A stretch of 64,000 bases of DNA, taken from the NCBI RefSeq assembly GCF_019711315.1, contig NZ_CP081294.1, forward strand, positions 1,736,001 to 1,800,000, written 5' to 3'. The notes under the pieces were generated by a model that was given only the letters and a program-made list of their open reading frames with translations, was not told the DNA's origin and made no database searches. Each line of letters begins with the position of its first letter. The stretch's first letter is position 1. Below, piece by piece: positions 2,284 through 60,596 of the stretch. Both the position numbers and the translations under genes were made by a program. Origin of the DNA: Qipengyuania gelatinilytica (GTDB lineage: Bacteria; Pseudomonadota; Alphaproteobacteria; Sphingomonadales; Sphingomonadaceae).

Positions 2284-4797
2284 TCAGCCCTGTTTGATGA
2301 GGTCTGCAAGTCCGGCAAAGGCGCTGCCTTCACGCGGGGCGCTGGTTTTCGCAGGCTTGGCGCGCTGCTGCTTGCGTCGCGACGGGCGCCATTCCCAGCT
2401 GTCGGGACGCGGCGGGCCGAAAGCGCCCTCGGCTAGCGGCCTTGCGCGCAGGACGCGGAAGCCTGCCTGGCCAAGCAATCGCTCGACATTGCGTTCTTCC
2501 AGTCCGATCGAGATCGGCAGAGCGAGATCGAGCCGGAACTTGCGGCTCTTGCCCGCCTTGCTGCGCGCTTCGTGTGCTGCGCGGAAGATCTTCTCGGCCA
2601 GATCGAGCCGGATCGCCTGGCTGCCTGCATGGCGATAGCCGGCGGGTAGTTTCTTTTGGTCGGGAATGACCGGCAGCATCGCTTCCTGCAGCGGCCTGCG
2701 ATCGATCCCGAGAGCGCTCAGGAGCTGGCGCGGTGCGGGCTTCAGCAGCAGCGGAGCGAAGATGTCGAGCGCGCCGAAGGTGACGCCGATCTTGCGCAGG
2801 AAGGGCCGCATCTCCTTGGGCAGGTGCTCGATGCCCGCCTTTTCGCGGGTCACGAAGCCGTGGCCGGAGATAAGGTTGAGCAGCAGCGCGCGCGCCTGGC
2901 TGCCAGCCTCGGGGTTGGCCGAGGCAATATGCATCTTGCGCAAGGGTTCGAGTGGCTCGAGATGCTTGTCGAGCCAGCCATCGATCGCGCCGAGCAGTGC
3001 CTTGCGCGGCTGGTCGGGCAGCGAAGCCACTTCGCGTGACGGTTCGAGAGCGGGTTTGACCTGACCTTCGCGCTCGGCGAGCTTTGCCAGGACCTGCCCG
3101 TTCCAGCGGATCGCACCGCGTGACAGCTCGAGCTCGGCAAGGTCGGTGGCGGCGAGCTTCTCCGCGCGCTCGCCCAATATGCGGGGCAGCGCCTTTTCGG
3201 CTGCCGCCAGCAGCATCTTGCGATCGGCGTGATTGGCCGAAGGATCGACAGTGAAGCGGAACCCCTCGACCTTGCCGAGCGCCTCGTCCTCGACGAGCAG
3301 CGTGCCGTCTTCTCCGAGCGTTATCGGGAGCATGGAGGCGTCCTGTCCCAGCGATTTCATCAGTATGGCAGTCCTTCGGTTCACGAATCTTTCGGTCAGC
3401 CGCGCATGGAGCGCATCCGACAGCTTGGCTTCCACGCCGCGTGCGCGCGACGCCATCTCGTCGCGCGCAAGGACCCAATCGGGCCGCTGGCAGATATAGG
3501 CCCAGCTGCGAATCGCGGCGATCCGTCCCTGCAGCGTATCGATATCGCCGCTGGTGTTGTCGAGTTCGGATATCCGCGCGGCGACGAAGTCCGCACCGAT
3601 ATACCCCTGCCGCAGGTCCTGCCAGAGGCGTGCGACGAAGCGGGCGTGGACATCGGGACCGCGAGCGCGGAAATCGGGCAGCGAACAGGCCTCCCAGAAG
3701 CGCCTAACCGCTCCCGCTCCGCGAACGTCGCGCGCCAGCGGCTCTTCGGCGAGCCGCTTGAGTGTCGCGAGGTCAATGGCCTCGGGGGCCAGGCGGAGCG
3801 CCTCGTGCTCGGGCGGCCGTTCGAGGTCCGCGATGAGCGTGCCCAGCGAATCGAAACGCGGTTCGGGATTGCGCCAGAAGAGCTTGGTGATCGGCGCGAA
3901 GCGATGCTCTTCGATCGCGTAGATCTCTTCTTCGGTGAATTCGGGCGAGGGGCCCATCTTGCCGCCGGCGCCTGCCAGCGTGCCGAAAGTGCCGTCACGC
4001 TGGTGCCGTCCTGCGCGCCCCGCAATCTGCGCCATTTCAGCAGGTTGCAGGCGCCTCATGCGAACGCCGTCGAACTTGGTCAGGCCCGCAAATGCGACAT
4101 GGTTGACGTCGAGATTGAGACCCATGCCGATGGCGTCGGTGGCGACGATGTAATCCACCTCACCATTCTGGTACAATTCGACCTGCTTGTTCCGCGTTTC
4201 CGGCGAAAGAGCGCCCATAACCACCGCGGCGCCGCCACGGAAGCGCCGCAGCATCTCGGCCACGGCGTAAACCTGCTCTGCACTGAAGGCGACGATCGCA
4301 CTCCGCGGCGGCAGGCGCGACAGCTTGCGCGGGCCGATATGGGTGAGGGTCGAGAAGCGTGGTCGTTCGGAAATCTCGGCGCGCGGTATCAGCGATCGCA
4401 CCATGGGCTCGAGCGTCGCTGCGCCCAGCAGCATGGTTTCATCACGTCCGCGCGCATTGAGCAGGCGGTCGGTAAAGACGTGGCCGCGTTCACGATCGGC
4501 TGCGAGCTGCGCCTCGTCGAGCGCGACGAAAGCCCGCTCGTTCGCCGAGCGGGGCATGGCCTCGACCGTGCAGCACAGGTAGCGCGCGCCGGGAGGCTCG
4601 ATCCGCTGCTCGCCGGTGATCAGCGCGACGTCCTTCTCGCCCTTGATCGCAACCACGCGGTCATAGACCTCGCGCGCCAGCAGGCGCAGCGGAAAGCCCA
4701 TCGCACCGCTCGAATGCGCACAGAGGCGTTCGATGGCGAGGTGGGTCTTGCCGGTATTGGTGGGCCCGAGGACCGCCTTGATCGGGGCGTCGTTCAC
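2284..4797 (-). CDS. SUV3-like superfamily 2 RNA helicase
   Basis: An 837-residue ATP-dependent helicase similar to mitochondrial SUV3, which works in RNA decay. Visible motifs are Walker A GPTNTGKTH (11-19), motif II DEAQ (94-97) and motif VI QIAGRAGRHQRDG in the second RecA domain, followed by the SUV3-type helical region (DSLGTLIADLERPPEHEALR). The last 40 residues are Lys/Arg/Ala-rich and probably disordered. It heads the S4-fdxA-yihY run and is divergent from the M23 gene across 191 bp. Alphaproteobacterial members are usually annotated only as 'helicase-related protein', so the RNA-decay role is inferred from SUV3 homology. Confidence 0.85.
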   Translation of the reverse strand: MNDAPIKAVLGPTNTGKTHLAIERLCAHSSGAMGFPLRLLAREVYDRVVAIKGEKDVALITGEQRIEPPGARYLCCTVEAMPRSANERAFVALDEAQLAADRERGHVFTDRLLNARGRDETMLLGAATLEPMVRSLIPRAEISERPRFSTLTHIGPRKLSRLPPRSAIVAFSAEQVYAVAEMLRRFRGGAAVVMGALSPETRNKQVELYQNGEVDYIVATDAIGMGLNLDVNHVAFAGLTKFDGVRMRRLQPAEMAQIAGRAGRHQRDGTFGTLAGAGGKMGPSPEFTEEEIYAIEEHRFAPITKLFWRNPEPRFDSLGTLIADLERPPEHEALRLAPEAIDLATLKRLAEEPLARDVRGAGAVRRFWEACSLPDFRARGPDVHARFVARLWQDLRQGYIGADFVAARISELDNTSGDIDTLQGRIAAIRSWAYICQRPDWVLARDEMASRARGVEAKLSDALHARLTERFVNRRTAILMKSLGQDASMLPITLGEDGTLLVEDEALGKVEGFRFTVDPSANHADRKMLLAAAEKALPRILGERAEKLAATDLAELELSRGAIRWNGQVLAKLAEREGQVKPALEPSREVASLPDQPRKALLGAIDGWLDKHLEPLEPLRKMHIASANPEAGSQARALLLNLISGHGFVTREKAGIEHLPKEMRPFLRKIGVTFGALDIFAPLLLKPAPRQLLSALGIDRRPLQEAMLPVIPDQKKLPAGYRHAGSQAIRLDLAEKIFRAAHEARSKAGKSRKFRLDLALPISIGLEERNVERLLGQAGFRVLRARPLAEGAFGPPRPDSWEWRPSRRKQQRAKPAKTSAPREGSAFAGLADLIKQG

Positions 4798-4988: not shown

Positions 4989-6569
4989 GTGAAACTTTCC
5001 GCACAGCGAAAGGCACAGGGGGAAAAGCAGACGGTCGCCGGACTCGGCGAAACGTCTGACGAAACTCCTGCGCGCCCTGCATCCTTCAGCGCGATGCGCG
5101 ACCGGGTCTATTGCAGCATCGAAAATCTCGACATCGCGCCCGATCTTGGCGCCGATATCGGTTCGCGCCGCTGGTTCCGTGGGCTCGGCACCTTCGTCGG
5201 CCTGTCGGTCGTCGCGCTTGCCTTCTGGCCCGACTTCGCCCCGCTCGAGGCGGCATCGCCGCTGCCCGACGATGCCGAGGTCGTCGGCGAATTCCGCAGC
5301 CACATGATCACGCCGCTCGCGCTGGGGGCCGATACCGGTCGCCGCATGGGCCCGACCGCGCTCGTCCGCCCGCTCGCCGAAGCGCCCGAGCGTCCGCAGA
5401 TGCAAATGTTGGCGACGCTGGGCCGCGGCGAAAGCCTGGAGCGGACCTTGCGCCGCGCAGGCATCGGCAGCGCCGAAGCCGAGAGTGTCACTTCGCTGAT
5501 CGCCGGTGCGGTCGACCTCGAAGAGCTCGAAGCCGGGACCCAGATCGACATCACCTTGGGCCGCCGCCCCGAACCGGGTGCGACGCGGCCGCTGGAGCAG
5601 CTCAGTTTCCGTGCGCGCTTCAATCTCGAACTCAAGATCGACCGCCTCGATGAGGACGGCCCTCTCGCGCTGACCCGCCGCCTGATTCGTGTCGACGACA
5701 CACCGCTGCGCATCCGCGGGACGGTTGGCGACAGCCTCTATCGCTCGGCGCGGGCCGCAGGCGCACCGGCCAGTGCGGTACAGGCCTATCTCAAGGCCGT
5801 CGGCCAGGACGTGAATCTCCAGCGCGACGTGCGTTCGACCGACCAGTTCGACATGATCATCTCGCACCGCCGTGCCGCCACCGGCGAACGCCAGGCAGGC
5901 CAGCTGCTCTACGCCGGCCTCGACCGTGGTTCGCGCAATGGCGTGAGCCTGATGCGCTGGGGCAAGGATGGCGAATTCTACAGCGCCGATGGCGAAGGCG
6001 AGGAAAAAGGCGGGCTGATCGCTCCGGTGCCGGGCCGGATGAGTTCGCGCTATGGCATGCGCCGTCACCCGGTGCTCGGCTATCGCCGCATGCATGCAGG
6101 CGTCGATTTCCGCGCACGCCACGGCACGCCAATCGTCGCCGTGACCGACGGGCGCGTGACCGGTGCGGGCCGCATGGGCGGCTGCGGCAATGCCGTGCGC
6201 CTTCGTCACGGCAATGGCATCGACACGCGCTATTGCCACATGAGCCGCATTGCAGTCCAACGCGGCCAGAGCGTGAAGCGCGGGCAGGTCATCGGCTATG
6301 TCGGTTCGACCGGCCTCTCGACCGGACCGCATCTTCATTACGAGATGTACCGCGGCGGCAAGCACGTGAACCCGACATCGGTGAGCTTCGTGACGCGCCG
6401 CCAGCTTTCGGGCGACGAGCTGGGCCGCTTCCGCGAAACGCTGCAGAAGCTCAAGCAGGTCGAAGAGGGTGCGGCGCTGGCCGATCTCGAACAGACCGCT
6501 GAAGAAGCCGCGACCGCAGAGCCCGAGCGCGAGATCGACAAGCTCGACCGGCCCCGCAAGGTCTCCTGA
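4989..6569 (+). CDS. M23 (LytM) family metallopeptidase, membrane-anchored
   Basis: A predicted zinc peptidoglycan endopeptidase of 526 residues. After a cytoplasmic N terminus there is one membrane segment (about residues 65-83, LGTFVGLSVVALAFW), a long periplasmic region with a LysM/OapA-like linker, and a C-terminal LytM domain. Zinc ligands are intact: HAGVD (His369, Asp373) and GPHLHYE (His448, His450). I chose GTG 4989 because AGAGGA ends 5 bases upstream; an in-frame GTG at 4944 would add 15 residues but has its purine run only one base away. The tail is Glu-rich. It is divergent from the helicase and precedes hemB by 46 bp. An active hydrolase is likely; the bond cut is not known. Confidence 0.88.
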   Translation: MKLSAQRKAQGEKQTVAGLGETSDETPARPASFSAMRDRVYCSIENLDIAPDLGADIGSRRWFRGLGTFVGLSVVALAFWPDFAPLEAASPLPDDAEVVGEFRSHMITPLALGADTGRRMGPTALVRPLAEAPERPQMQMLATLGRGESLERTLRRAGIGSAEAESVTSLIAGAVDLEELEAGTQIDITLGRRPEPGATRPLEQLSFRARFNLELKIDRLDEDGPLALTRRLIRVDDTPLRIRGTVGDSLYRSARAAGAPASAVQAYLKAVGQDVNLQRDVRSTDQFDMIISHRRAATGERQAGQLLYAGLDRGSRNGVSLMRWGKDGEFYSADGEGEEKGGLIAPVPGRMSSRYGMRRHPVLGYRRMHAGVDFRARHGTPIVAVTDGRVTGAGRMGGCGNAVRLRHGNGIDTRYCHMSRIAVQRGQSVKRGQVIGYVGSTGLSTGPHLHYEMYRGGKHVNPTSVSFVTRRQLSGDELGRFRETLQKLKQVEEGAALADLEQTAEEAATAEPEREIDKLDRPRKVS

Positions 6570-26795: not shown

Positions 26796-27155
26796 ATGGC
26801 TAAGCCCGACAAGCAGGAACTGCTCGATTTCGTGCTCGGCCAGCTCGACGATGACCAGGCCCAGGAGGTCGTGACCATCGATCTTGAAGGCAAGAGCTCG
26901 ATCGCCGATTACATGGTGATCGCCTCGGGCCGTTCGACCCGCCAGGTTGCCTCGATCGCGCAGAAGCTTGCCGAGAAGCTCAAGCAGAACGGCTATGGCC
27001 CGGTGAAGCTGGAAGGCTTGCCGCAGGCCGACTGGGTGCTGCTCGATGCCGGTGACATCGTGGTCCACCTGTTCCGCCCCGAAGTGCGCAGCTTCTACAA
27101 CCTCGAGCGCATGTGGGCGTTCGGCGACGCACCGCCGGTGGCCGGCACGGCGTGA
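26796..27155 (+). CDS. rsfS: Ribosomal silencing factor RsfS
   Basis: Binds uL14 on the 50S subunit and blocks subunit joining, saving energy in starvation. The 119-residue form begins MAKPDKQELLDFVLGQL and shows VVTIDLEGKSSIADYMVIASGRSTRQV and WVLLDAGDIVVHLFRPEVRSFYNLERMW, the DUF143 core. GAAGGTGG lies 5 bases before the ATG at 26796. An ATG at 26736 would add 20 polar residues and cannot be ruled out. It sits between nadD and rlmH as usual. Confidence 0.92.
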   Translation: MAKPDKQELLDFVLGQLDDDQAQEVVTIDLEGKSSIADYMVIASGRSTRQVASIAQKLAEKLKQNGYGPVKLEGLPQADWVLLDAGDIVVHLFRPEVRSFYNLERMWAFGDAPPVAGTA

Positions 27156-27223
27156 TCATTTTGTAGCCTCAAGCGCCGGCGGCCGCGTCCGCGGCCTTAG
27201 GCTTCCGCGCCAGTGGGCGCGAC

Positions 27224-27355
27224 GCGCAGTCGCGCTTTGGCTGCCGCGACCAAGAACCGGGCCGGCGGAGGCCCGGCAAGGGCGACCGCCCGCCCGCAGG
27301 GGCCCGTAGCGAAGCGGAGGAACAGCCCCGAGGACGAACCCGCGGAGGCGGGTTC
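27224..27355. repeat. Structured intergenic repeat, copy A
   Basis: This fills most of the 232-bp gap between rsfS and rlmH. It is built of hairpins: 27224-27235 (GCGC AGTC GCGC), 27257-27276 (CCGGGCC/GGCCCGG), 27280-27291 (GGGC GACC GCCC) and 27336-27355 (GAACCCGC GGAG GCGGGTTC). A related copy at 60400-60566 keeps the same order and orientation, with base changes that preserve pairing. Two further hairpins (27181-27196, 27207-27220) precede it without a clear match in copy B. I cannot tie it to a named family. Confidence 0.7.
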
Positions 27356-27387
27356 GAAAAACAATAACTTTCGGGTAGACGCATAGC

Positions 27388-27810
27388 ATGCTCCTCCACG
27401 TCATAGCCCGAGGTAAGATCGCCCGCTCACCCGAGGCGGAGCTTGTCGCACGGTACGAGAAGCGGCTGACATGGCCGGTCAAGTTCACCGAACTGCCCGA
27501 GACGGGCGGGCGCATTCCCGATCCGCAAACTCCCTACAAGACCGTGCTGCTCGACGAGCGCGGCAAGGACCTTTCGTCCGAGAAGCTCGCCGAAATCCTC
27601 GAGCGCTGGCGCGATGACGGCATGCGCGAGTGCCGTTTCGTGCTGGGCGCCGCCGACGGCCATTCCGAGGACGAACGGCGCGACGCGGACCTCCTGCTCG
27701 CGTTCGGCAAGGCCACCTGGCCGCACCTGCTGGCCCGCGCCATGCTCGCCGAACAGCTTTACCGCGCGACGACGATCATCGCCGGTCACCCCTACCATCG
27801 CAGCGGATAA
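27388..27810 (+). CDS. rlmH: 23S rRNA (pseudouridine(1915)-N(3))-methyltransferase
   Basis: A SPOUT-class methyltransferase that modifies pseudouridine 1915 in helix 69 of 23S rRNA on 70S ribosomes. It is 140 residues. The AdoMet-binding trefoil knot is seen in CRFVLGAADGHSEDERRDADLLLAFGKATWPHLLARAMLAEQLYRA, and the C-terminal GHPYHR is the conserved catalytic tail. It follows the structured repeat and starts the run to envC-like and ctpA. Confidence 0.95.
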   Translation: MLLHVIARGKIARSPEAELVARYEKRLTWPVKFTELPETGGRIPDPQTPYKTVLLDERGKDLSSEKLAEILERWRDDGMRECRFVLGAADGHSEDERRDADLLLAFGKATWPHLLARAMLAEQLYRATTIIAGHPYHRSG

Positions 27811-58992: not shown

Positions 58993-60327
58993 GTGACACC
59001 CTTTCCCTGGACCGATCTGCTCATCATTGCCGGGCTCATCCTGCTCAACGGCGTTTTCGCCATGAGCGAGCTGGCAATCGTTTCCGCCAAGACCTCGCGA
59101 TTGCGCTCTGCCGCACAGCAGGGGAGCCTTGGCGCGAAGTCGGCCATCTCGCTGGCTTCGGACCCCGGCAAGTTCCTTTCGACCGTGCAGATCGGCATCA
59201 CGCTGGTCGGCATCATCGCAGGCGCTTACTCCGGGGCGAGCCTCGGCGGCCCTGTCGGCGAGCGGCTGGCAGTCCTCGGCGTACCGGCCGACTGGGCCGA
59301 CCAGGCCGGTTTCGCGCTCGTGATCGCGCTGACAACCTATTTCAGCCTCGTCGTGGGCGAACTGGTTCCCAAGCAGGTCGCGCTTCGGGCCGCAGTTCCG
59401 ATCGCCATTGCCATGGCGGGTCCCATGGCGTTGCTCGCAAGGGTGGCTGCTCCGCTGGTGTGGCTGCTCGATACTTCGTCGGGCCTGCTGATCCGTGCGC
59501 TGGGCGTGCGTCCTGCAGGCCAAAGCGCGGTAACGGCAGAAGAATTGCACATGCTCTTCGCCGAAGCGACACGCACGGGCATTATCGAAACCGAACAGCA
59601 CCAGATGCTCGCGGGCGTCGTGCGGCTTGCCGAGCGACCGGTGCGCGAGGTGATGACGCCGCGCACCGAACTCGACTGGATCGACGTCAACGCGGACGAG
59701 GAGGCCATTCGCGTGCTGCTCGACGAAAGCCCGCATTCGGTCTGGCCGGTGGCGGACGGCTCGCCCGACAAGGTGATGGGCCTCGTGCGTGTGCGCGAAG
59801 TGCTGAGCGCGATGCTGGCCGGTGGTAGCGTCGATCTCGAAACGCTGATGACCAAGGCCGAGGTCGTGCCAGACCAGCTCGATGCGGTCGATGCGCTGCG
59901 CGTGCTCCAGCAGGCAGATATCGCCATGGCCATGGTGCATGACGAATACGGCCACCTCGACGGGATCGTGACCCCGGTCGACCTGTTGACCGCGCTGGTC
60001 GGCGATTTCGCCAGCGACCAGGATCCGGGCGATTCCCCGGGCATCGTCGAGCGTGCCGATGGCTCGCTTCTCGTAGCCGGATCGCTATCTGCCGATGCGC
60101 TCGCGGACCGGCTGGGCCTCGTTTACGGCGATGACCGCGAGTTCGCCACGGTGGCGGGTTTCTGCCTCGCGGTGATGAAGAAGCTGCCCGTCGAGGGCGA
60201 GTTTTTCGAGGAACAGGGCTGGCGCTTCGAGGTGATCGACCTCGACGAACGCCGGATCGACAAGGTGCTGGTGAGCGAAATCGCTCCCAAGGCGAACAGC
60301 GACGCTCCGGAAGACTACGCGATATAG
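58993..60327 (+). CDS. CNNM/CorC-type hemolysin-family protein with CBS domains
   Basis: A 444-residue membrane protein: an N-terminal CNNM (DUF21) domain with four hydrophobic segments (LIIAGLILLNGVFAMSELAIVSAKTSRL ... VGELVPKQVALRAA), a CBS pair (about 215-345; VREVMTPRTELDWIDVNADEEAIRVLL, VHDEYGHLDGIVTPVDLLTALVGD) and a C-terminal CorC_HlyC domain. Related proteins mediate Mg/Co efflux or Mg-linked regulation; the name 'hemolysin' is historical. The start is GTG 58993. Confidence 0.9.
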   Translation: MTPFPWTDLLIIAGLILLNGVFAMSELAIVSAKTSRLRSAAQQGSLGAKSAISLASDPGKFLSTVQIGITLVGIIAGAYSGASLGGPVGERLAVLGVPADWADQAGFALVIALTTYFSLVVGELVPKQVALRAAVPIAIAMAGPMALLARVAAPLVWLLDTSSGLLIRALGVRPAGQSAVTAEELHMLFAEATRTGIIETEQHQMLAGVVRLAERPVREVMTPRTELDWIDVNADEEAIRVLLDESPHSVWPVADGSPDKVMGLVRVREVLSAMLAGGSVDLETLMTKAEVVPDQLDAVDALRVLQQADIAMAMVHDEYGHLDGIVTPVDLLTALVGDFASDQDPGDSPGIVERADGSLLVAGSLSADALADRLGLVYGDDREFATVAGFCLAVMKKLPVEGEFFEEQGWRFEVIDLDERRIDKVLVSEIAPKANSDAPEDYAI

Positions 60328-60399
60328 TTTTCGCGTTTCGAACCGACCCCCGTCGGTTCGTCCTCGCTAGACGTGCAGCAAGCTGCACCCGCTGCGGGC

Positions 60400-60566
60400 G
60401 GGCGGTCGCCCTATGACTGCCGTGACCAAGAGTTAATCCGAAAAATTACGGTCTAGCGCGAGGGCCGGGCCGGCGGAGGCCCGGCAAGCGCGACTGCGCG
60501 CCCGCAGGTGCTCGACGCGGTCACGCGTCGAAATAGCGCCGAGGATGAGCCCGCGGAGGCGGGCTC
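60400..60566. repeat. Structured intergenic repeat, copy B
   Basis: In the 269-bp gap after the CNNM gene. Hairpins are 60400-60411 (GGGC GGTC GCCC), 60465-60484 (CCGGGCC/GGCCCGG, same as copy A), 60488-60499 (GCGC GACT GCGC) and 60547-60566 (GAGCCCGC GGAG GCGGGCTC). The linker CTGCCGTGACCAAGAG (60417-60432) matches copy A at 14 of 16 bases. About 32 extra bases (60433-60464) lie between hairpins one and two. A further hairpin GTGCAGC-aa-GCTGCAC (60373-60388) precedes it. Confidence 0.7.
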
Positions 60567-60596
60567 TATAAACTAGGGAATCAGTAATTCCCGGCG

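Follow-up and report, generated by a model that had tools for sequence, protein, structure and literature searches.

The BIME/REPIN/REP elements (GTAG) resemble the elements described here in being short intergenic palindromes, mosaic in build, often arranged as head-to-head pairs, and located downstream of genes; REPs lie predominantly downstream of coding regions (PMC3733652). They differ in size, however, as BIME/REPIN/REP elements consist of one palindrome of 20–40 bp, whereas the present elements are built from half-modules of ≈75–100 nt with three to four hairpins each. The CGTC-REPs (Di Nocera 2013) offer a second comparison. According to the same source, they are predominantly alphaproteobacterial, intergenic, present as dimers, and without a known transposase, all of which applies to the present elements as well, and each consists of CGTC followed by a stem of 8–9 bp, in which AT almost invariably comes first, and a loop of 4–5 nt (PMC3733652). 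Unlike the CGTC-REPs, the present element has several hairpins, and its hairpin 1 mostly starts with CG and has G/A-TCCTCG after it. The 91 distinct hairpin 1 stems start with CG (77), CC (9), GC (2), TG (2), or AG (1), and we reject an identity with the CGTC-REPs on this basis.

RIME (Rhizobium-specific intergenic mosaic elements) and Bru-RS are alphaproteobacterial mosaic palindromic elements of 100–200 nt. The present elements share this general character; to our knowledge, RIME and Bru-RS have been described in Rhizobiales and without a class-wide hairpin core, and we set them apart by this description, not by sequence. Bacterial MITEs are similar to the copies in one relative, genome G225, which are near-identical and 145–146 bp long, with terminal inverted repeats and 3-bp TNA duplications. 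The present elements differ from bacterial MITEs in that a structured, covarying core is common to several families while the terminal arms differ, and in that the Erythrobacteraceae copies have no detectable duplications. Cuckoo RNAs/ar14 and RsmX-type RNAs contain multiple hairpins whose loops are CUCC or GGA; the present element, in contrast, has no Rfam match at the gathering score. Rfam 15 gave no match in the window (the whole 64,000-nucleotide stretch analyzed here), and in loci L001–L007 and nine class- or order-level loci, only tRNAs reached the cut-off. A CsrA/RsmX sponge was likewise rejected, as the rsmX match had an E value of 0.31 (25.8 bits, with 56 needed) and CsrA (PF02599) had no match at E ≤ 0.001 in the Qipengyuania genome. 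The expectation that no named family would apply is thus borne out for Rfam 15. In the main text of openly available journals, we recognized no published description of the element, and a search with sequence strings was empty.

Repeats of this kind have mostly been recognized by their sequence and in single species or genera. In the present case, a single folded core can be traced across a bacterial class, with recent copies in one family and old common sites in another. Two of its members, elements A and B, lie in the window; they are probably old copies from a family of small, MITE-like, nonautonomous DNA repeats that spans the Alphaproteobacteria and has apparently not been described before.

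Element A occupies the gap between rsfS, whose stop codon ends at 27155, and rlmH, whose ATG is at 27388 (gene names are those of the original prediction), and element B is located in the gap 3′ of a plus-strand ORF at 58993–60327. Both had been predicted as intergenic elements with four hairpins in the same order. The quoted hairpins are present at their positions, letter for letter, and the elements extend further: in A, an R′ half (27160–27236) directly follows the rsfS stop and an A-rich tail reaches 27367, and B starts at ≈60331 and includes two overlooked hairpins (60339–60360 and 60373–60388). The parts of both elements are as follows.

27160..27367, both strands: element A, whole; R′ half on the plus strand, spacer, L half on the minus strand (R'>..<L)
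27165..27236, plus strand: R′ half of A, match of the R covariance model (genome coordinates 1763165-1763236)
27181-27196, plus strand: hairpin 1 of the R′ half, GGCCGC-GTCC-GCGGCC, preceded by the prefix AGCCTCAAGCGCCGGC
27206-27221, plus strand: hairpin 2 of the R′ half, CGCGCC-AGTG-GGCGCG
27224-27235, plus strand: hairpin 3 of the R′ half, GCGC-AGTC-GCGC
27257..27276, minus strand: hairpin 4, L half of A, CCGGGCC-GGCGGA-GGCCCGG (the "second" hairpin of the original prediction)
27279..27356, minus strand: L half of A, reversed, match of the L covariance model (genome coordinates 1763279-1763356)
27280-27291, minus strand: hairpin 3 of the L half, GGGC-GACC-GCCC
27299-27329, minus strand: hairpin 2 of the L half, long type
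27335-27356, minus strand: hairpin 1 of the L half, CGAACCCGC-GGAG-GCGGGTTCG
27357..27367, minus strand: A-rich tail of A, which is the T-rich outer end of the reversed L half
About 60331-60570 (ends approximate), both strands: element B, whole; L half on the plus strand, middle, L half on the minus strand (L>..<L)
60339..60412, plus strand: first L half of B, match of the L covariance model (genome coordinates 1796339-1796412)
60339-60360, plus strand: hairpin 1 of the first L half, CGAACCGAC-CCCC-GTCGGTTCG
60373-60388, plus strand: hairpin 2 of the first L half, GTGCAGC-AA-GCTGCAC
60400-60411, plus strand: hairpin 3 of the first L half, GGGC-GGTC-GCCC
60465..60484, minus strand: hairpin 4, second L half of B, letters identical to hairpin 4 of A
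60487..60566, minus strand: second L half of B, reversed, within a blastn match at 1796465-1796566 of the genome
60488-60499, minus strand: hairpin 3 of the second L half, GCGC-GACT-GCGC
60507-60540, minus strand: hairpin 2 of the second L half, long type
60547-60566, minus strand: hairpin 1 of the second L half, GAGCCCGC-GGAG-GCGGGCTC

These assignments change how the hairpins of A and B should be compared. The "third" and "last" hairpins of the original prediction are indeed homologous, both belonging to the reversed L halves, whereas the "first" hairpins occupy nonhomologous positions (hairpin 3 of the R half in A and hairpin 3 of the L half in B). The "second" hairpin is invariant, as had been claimed. 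An exact 20-mer is common to A and B, where shuffles would lead one to expect 0.06 matches with up to three mismatches. Folded as RNA, positions 27190–27360 (A) have a z score of −2.4, with 1 of 200 shuffles equally good, and positions 60385–60580 (B) a z score of −5.2, with none of 200 equally good; as single-stranded DNA, element A has a z score of −2.3.

The Qipengyuania genome holds seven loci rather than the two copies originally proposed. They were found by blastn in its 2,832,199 bases (2.83 Mb) with element A and a 187-nt composite of the copies in this genome as queries, the composite giving eight rows at E ≤ 1e-8.

A, B, 1461747-1461958, and 2360792-2360979: the four full or dimeric loci
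1660882: the one lone L half
1805659 and 1891398: the two lone R halves

The element consists of two multihairpin half-modules, of L and R types, with their T-rich ends outward, and the layouts in this genome comprise R'>..<L (A), L>..<L (B), L>..<R, lone L, and lone R. An L half reads T-rich end, hairpin 1 (loop NTCC), TCCTCG, hairpin 2, TGCGGGC, hairpin 3, CTTGC, and hairpin 4. An R half reads T-rich end, CCCTCAAACGCCGGGC, hairpin 1 (loop NTCC), CTTGGCT, hairpin 2, and hairpin 3; its consensus places CCCTCARNCGCCGGGC between the T-rich end and hairpin 1, whose loop is mostly NTCC, followed by CTTGGCT, hairpin 2, and hairpin 3 with a loop that is mostly NGTC. The outer motif over 109 L halves is [CT]TTGTTTT. 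The kinship of L and R follows from this shared layout and from the 10 of 131 halves matched by both models, which we count as a weak point.

Pairing-preserving changes, proposed from A and B, hold far beyond two copies. In 14 L rows, 12 of the 19 pairs had changed on both sides, as had 10 of the 15 pairs in 22 R rows. Two covariance models, L and R, were built, and they gave 113 L and 28 R matches (E ≤ 0.001) in 79 Erythrobacteraceae stretches fetched by one exact L-core pattern, whose titles name Erythrobacteraceae genera or uncultured Sphingomonadaceae/Erythrobacteraceae. Across 110 distinct L rows, 96.0% of cells are paired, and all 19 pairs show pairing-preserving double changes (363 such cells); the covariation score is 0.478, compared with 0.123 (sd 0.007) for shuffles and at most 0.078 when slid. 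The 28 R rows from these stretches have 13 of 15 covarying pairs, with one helix just 76% paired. In 74 R rows, a sample of the matches from the class and order searches taken entirely outside the family of Qipengyuania, 14 of 15 pairs covary, with a score of 0.478 against 0.113 for shuffles and at most 0.078 when slid. The covariance-model search of the order and the statistical covariation test suggested with the original prediction returned many copies whose substitutions respect the pairs, rather than two copies only or substitutions that break them. Structure and not protein is conserved. Of the 131 half-modules, 125 overlap called genes by ≤30 nt, the remaining 6 by more.

Because the L and R alignments are fitted to the model, hairpin 1 was also located by an external motif, blind to pairing. 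In the L type with a short hairpin 2, it was anchored on the motif after the stem, and stems with a fitting loop were kept; the resulting 60 distinct stems have 490 of 540 cells in Watson–Crick pairs, with 8 G.U, 21 A.C, and 21 other. A looser anchor for the long type (32 sequences, several plainly chance) gave 228 Watson–Crick cells of 288, 8 G.U, 17 A.C, and 35 other. Alignment A4 has 1867 Watson–Crick, 29 G.U, 40 A.C, and 38 other cells. On the strand of the upstream gene, G.U does not appear to be favored over A.C, either in the 60 stems (8 versus 21) or in A4 (29 versus 40), although the A.C excess falls largely at two hairpin 1 positions and the copies are related. Crude stem parsing of 12 distinct tRNAs yielded 67 Watson–Crick, 3 G.U, 2 A.C, and 12 other pairs, too poor a parse to serve as a reference for the G.U rate. 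A pseudoknot in the core, CCC/GGG with GCC/GGC, is possible; its outer pair changes from C-G to G-C in 5 of 22 rows (alignment A1) and in 1 of 74 (A6), and the GCC/GGC pairing hardly varies.

The family is patchy, as most genomes have no match. The L model matches at least 22 of 147 genomes of the order, in 9 of 56 genera and in the family of Qipengyuania only (E ≤ 1e-3), with up to 26 matches per genome in this sample. The R model matches at least 33 of the same number of genomes, in 18 of 56 genera and four families (E ≤ 1e-5), at least 22 of 289 genomes of the class (18 of 224 genera), and at least 12 of 398 genomes of the phylum, all 12 positives being alphaproteobacterial. The genome samples overlap, stricter filters apply above 40 genomes, and only a limited set of candidates was scored in each genome, so these counts are lower bounds. 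The unpaired strings CCCTCA..CGCCGGGC and CTTGGCT are common to most of the 74 R matches outside the family.

Because both recent and old copies of one core are available, what keeps the hairpins paired can be tested on orthologous copies, the candidates being template switching and selection on either RNA or DNA. A single orthologous site can hold different halves: where Qipengyuania gelatinilytica has element A, the rsfS–rlmH gap of 24 same-genus relatives carries, by eye, a lone L, a full L>..<L, decayed remnants, or nothing. In total, 72 of 115 L halves belong to 21 orthologous groups; transposition in this family is accordingly infrequent, which we count against the MITE-like reading. Two orthologous copies (L224 and L225) differ in hairpin 1 by one compensated pair, CGAACCCGC/GCGGGTTCG having become CGAACTCGC/GCGAGTTCG. 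In 98 orthologous pairs with flank identity ≥80%, which are not independent within a group, we observed 166 double changes that keep Watson–Crick pairing, where independent change of the two sides at the flank rate predicts 19.5, and 89 changes with a non-Watson–Crick state, where 216.9 are predicted. The 166 double changes comprise 89 GC-CG/AT-TA flips, 39 others of transversion type, and 38 of transition type, and the flanks of the same pairs contain 2923 transversions and 2270 transitions. Since G.U is rare and the double changes are mostly of transversion type, stepwise evolution through G.U is unlikely to have been the main path of stem change. At nonorthologous sites, hairpin 1 arms are alike at 6.51 of 9 positions within a genome and 5.86 of 9 between genomes (5.17 to 7.87 in individual genomes), and in genome G014, the same hairpin 1 stem is found in 6 of the 11 L halves. 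To judge from these sequences, this likeness and recurrence suggest that hairpin 1 stems are copied between sites within a genome.

Marks of mobility were found in relatives of A and B. G225, a 77% complete genome from a different family within the class, supplied 14 stretches, of which 13 match locus L353 at 93–99% over 147–158 nt and no further; three stretches are cut off by contig ends and may represent loci already counted. Both ends are present in 11 stretches, where the element is 145–146 bp long, typically from TACCAGG to CTTRGTA (terminal inverted repeats). In 10 of these 11 copies, an identical TNA (TTA, TAA, or TCA) stands on both sides, the exception being TAA/AAA. With shuffled right ends, the mean is 4.7, as expected with TAA being common, and the highest value is 9, so that none of 2000 shuffles reaches 10. 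The repetition is direct, not inverted, which marks it as a target-site duplication. As single-stranded DNA, the G225 element folds into five hairpins (z −10.0). Among the 74 class-level R matches, 15 have TACC..GGTA ends, 9 of them with matching triplets and 6 without; both the small share with recognizable ends and the six without a matching triplet weigh against the MITE-like reading. Outside G225, such ends occur in 13 of 70 copies, and a matching TNA in 7 of the 13 (genomes G440, G221, and G257), these being raw counts. A TNA target duplication is a trait of the IS1031 group, IS5-type elements, whereas IS200/IS605-type insertion is not known to make TNA duplications. The outer ends of Erythrobacteraceae copies are T-rich/A-rich only, and their 34 complete dimers have no target duplication and no favored offset (best 4 of 34, 3-mers); we therefore infer the mobility of A and B from these relatives.

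Under the MITE-like reading, the family would have spread by cut-and-paste-like transposition driven in trans by a transposase. A need to form in single-stranded or cruciform DNA may have preserved the hairpins, as may the copying of stems as units, by replication template switching or gene conversion. Among the Erythrobacteraceae, the elements would have fused head to head and lost recognizable target duplications, and most copies there would by now be decaying or swapping halves at their existing sites. Conservation of the interior exceeds what an ordinary MITE would lead one to expect, and the transposase search, which covered Y1_Tnp, linked no enzyme to the family; both points count against this reading. 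A secondary effect as a 3′-UTR hairpin cluster is possible. Alternatively, and more tentatively, the family could be class-wide mobile DNA with a conserved folded core, NTCC and NGTC loops, and a possible pseudoknot, whose stems are swapped or copied whole instead of evolving one base at a time through G.U; the core would then be either the recognition structure of single-strand transposition or a functional RNA that hitch-hikes behind host or prophage genes.

The placement of the elements bears on an RNA-based alternative, in which the half after a stop codon folds in the mRNA, shields or processes its 3′ end, and is selected as a transcribed 3′-UTR structure. Genes were called with a home-made caller (coding fraction 0.83), and loci were fetched by an L-core pattern, which biases these counts toward L. 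Adjacent halves face outward in 34 of 36 cases, with a median inner gap of 75 nt. Of 118 outer T-rich ends, 85 point toward the 3′ end of a gene (median distance to the stop, 12 nt) and 33 toward a 5′ end; not counted are six that are separated from the gene by a further half and seven that have no neighboring gene to point to. Flanking genes of 82 elements (13 of 95 at stretch ends are excluded) are convergent in 39 cases, codirectional in 35, and divergent in 8; all 529 adjacent gene pairs, for comparison, comprise 100, 341, and 88, respectively. Lone halves between codirectional genes are sense in 14 cases and antisense in 8, and for several, the nearest called gene on one side is more than 400 nt away. 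Also in favor of a 3′-UTR structure is the NTCC loop of 104 of 113 L matches, found with a model itself trained on that loop. Against these points stand the apparent absence of a G.U preference on the sense strand, the 128 of 166 double changes that are unreachable through G.U, and the antisense orientation of 8 of 22 lone halves, while six of the 14 sense cases look like one site (five share one orthologous group). The rsfS–rlmH site, moreover, is empty or decayed in many same-genus relatives (by eye). A search for intrinsic terminators found no site at A (0.3 in shuffles) and a single weak, terminator-like site beside B, on the minus strand outside the hairpins (60592–60576; 0.2 in shuffles); this site uses the T-rich outer end, so that T-rich ends may end neighboring transcripts. 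We regard selection on a transcribed 3′-UTR structure as unlikely. A 3′-end processing or stabilizing role had been raised in the original prediction, and the orientation toward gene 3′ ends allows for it; REPs, however, likewise lie mainly downstream of coding regions (PMC3733652), and such a role is no more than possible.

A further explanation dispenses with selection on pairing: replication template switching would repeatedly copy one arm onto the other, and the loops would be conserved by ancestry. A single template-switching event can both create and repair a hairpin (PMC8794818), and the rarity of G.U and the few mismatches are in keeping with it, as are the very different hairpin 1 stems of two orthologous copies (L207 and L208) in otherwise similar surroundings (by eye). 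On its own, however, template switching leaves unexplained why the same unpaired motifs recur across families of the class, why halves pair outward, and why GC-CG/AT-TA flips (89 of 166) exceed other changes, and we consider it improbable as the sole cause. For RNA finders, the caution is that strong covariation alone need not imply a functional RNA. Finally, although the elements are palindromic, intergenic, mosaic, head-to-head, and downstream of genes, like REPs (PMC3733652), their mobilization as a REPIN/BIME by a Y1 (RAYT) transposase is very improbable, as GTAG stands beside hairpin 1 in none of the 91 distinct stems whose loop has the expected form, the R relatives carry TACCR ends and TNA duplications, and a transposase search, which covered Y1_Tnp, found none in the Qipengyuania genome and a match in only 1 of 18 copy-bearing genomes. 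That genome, G179, has the only full-length match (G179:C39:188497-188853, locus L235) and also carries a Y1 transposase fragment (L236).

Several loci deserve mention in their own right. At L061 (≈1700–1800), a CGTCATTGCGAG-type REP, a CGTC-REP by eye, adjoins an L half, so that two repeat types share one gap. At L161, L halves (3073–3151 and 6393–6473) lie at both ends of one called 3.4-kb gene, so that either the gene call is mistaken or the pair is genuinely intragenic. A weak match to BjrC1505, an alphaproteobacterial sRNA, lies at L117 66–187, away from the repeat (33 bits, cut-off 50). Nothing recurrent was seen by eye among genes carried between two halves.

A plasmid or phage origin was rejected, as plasmid and phage records contain few or no matches. 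The L/R composite has no blastn match in plasmids or phages. A class-type R query has none in phages and matches 4 of 72,556 plasmid records, on large plasmids of Niveispirillum, Azospirillum, and Tistrella, which are carriers outside the order; Niveispirillum is alphaproteobacterial, and we take the other two to be so as well. The G225 element has one partial match, in Methylobacterium. Exact-pattern searches of viral contigs gave 3 and 2 matches. Two R-type copies (L277 and L278) lie within IMG/VR contigs classed as viral, that of L277 directly behind a baseplate-spike-like gene (by eye). In the Qipengyuania genome, the lone R half at 1891398–1891490 directly precedes a gene that resembles an HK97-type capsid gene by eye (prophage or gene transfer agent), and the same arrangement is seen by eye in one relative (L041). 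At L349 (G674:C33, 60315–60796), R copies are repeated four times in direct tandem, one every ≈136 bp, between genes that look, by eye, like those of a phage capsid region; in G671, a related genome (L348), one R copy lies between similar genes (by eye).
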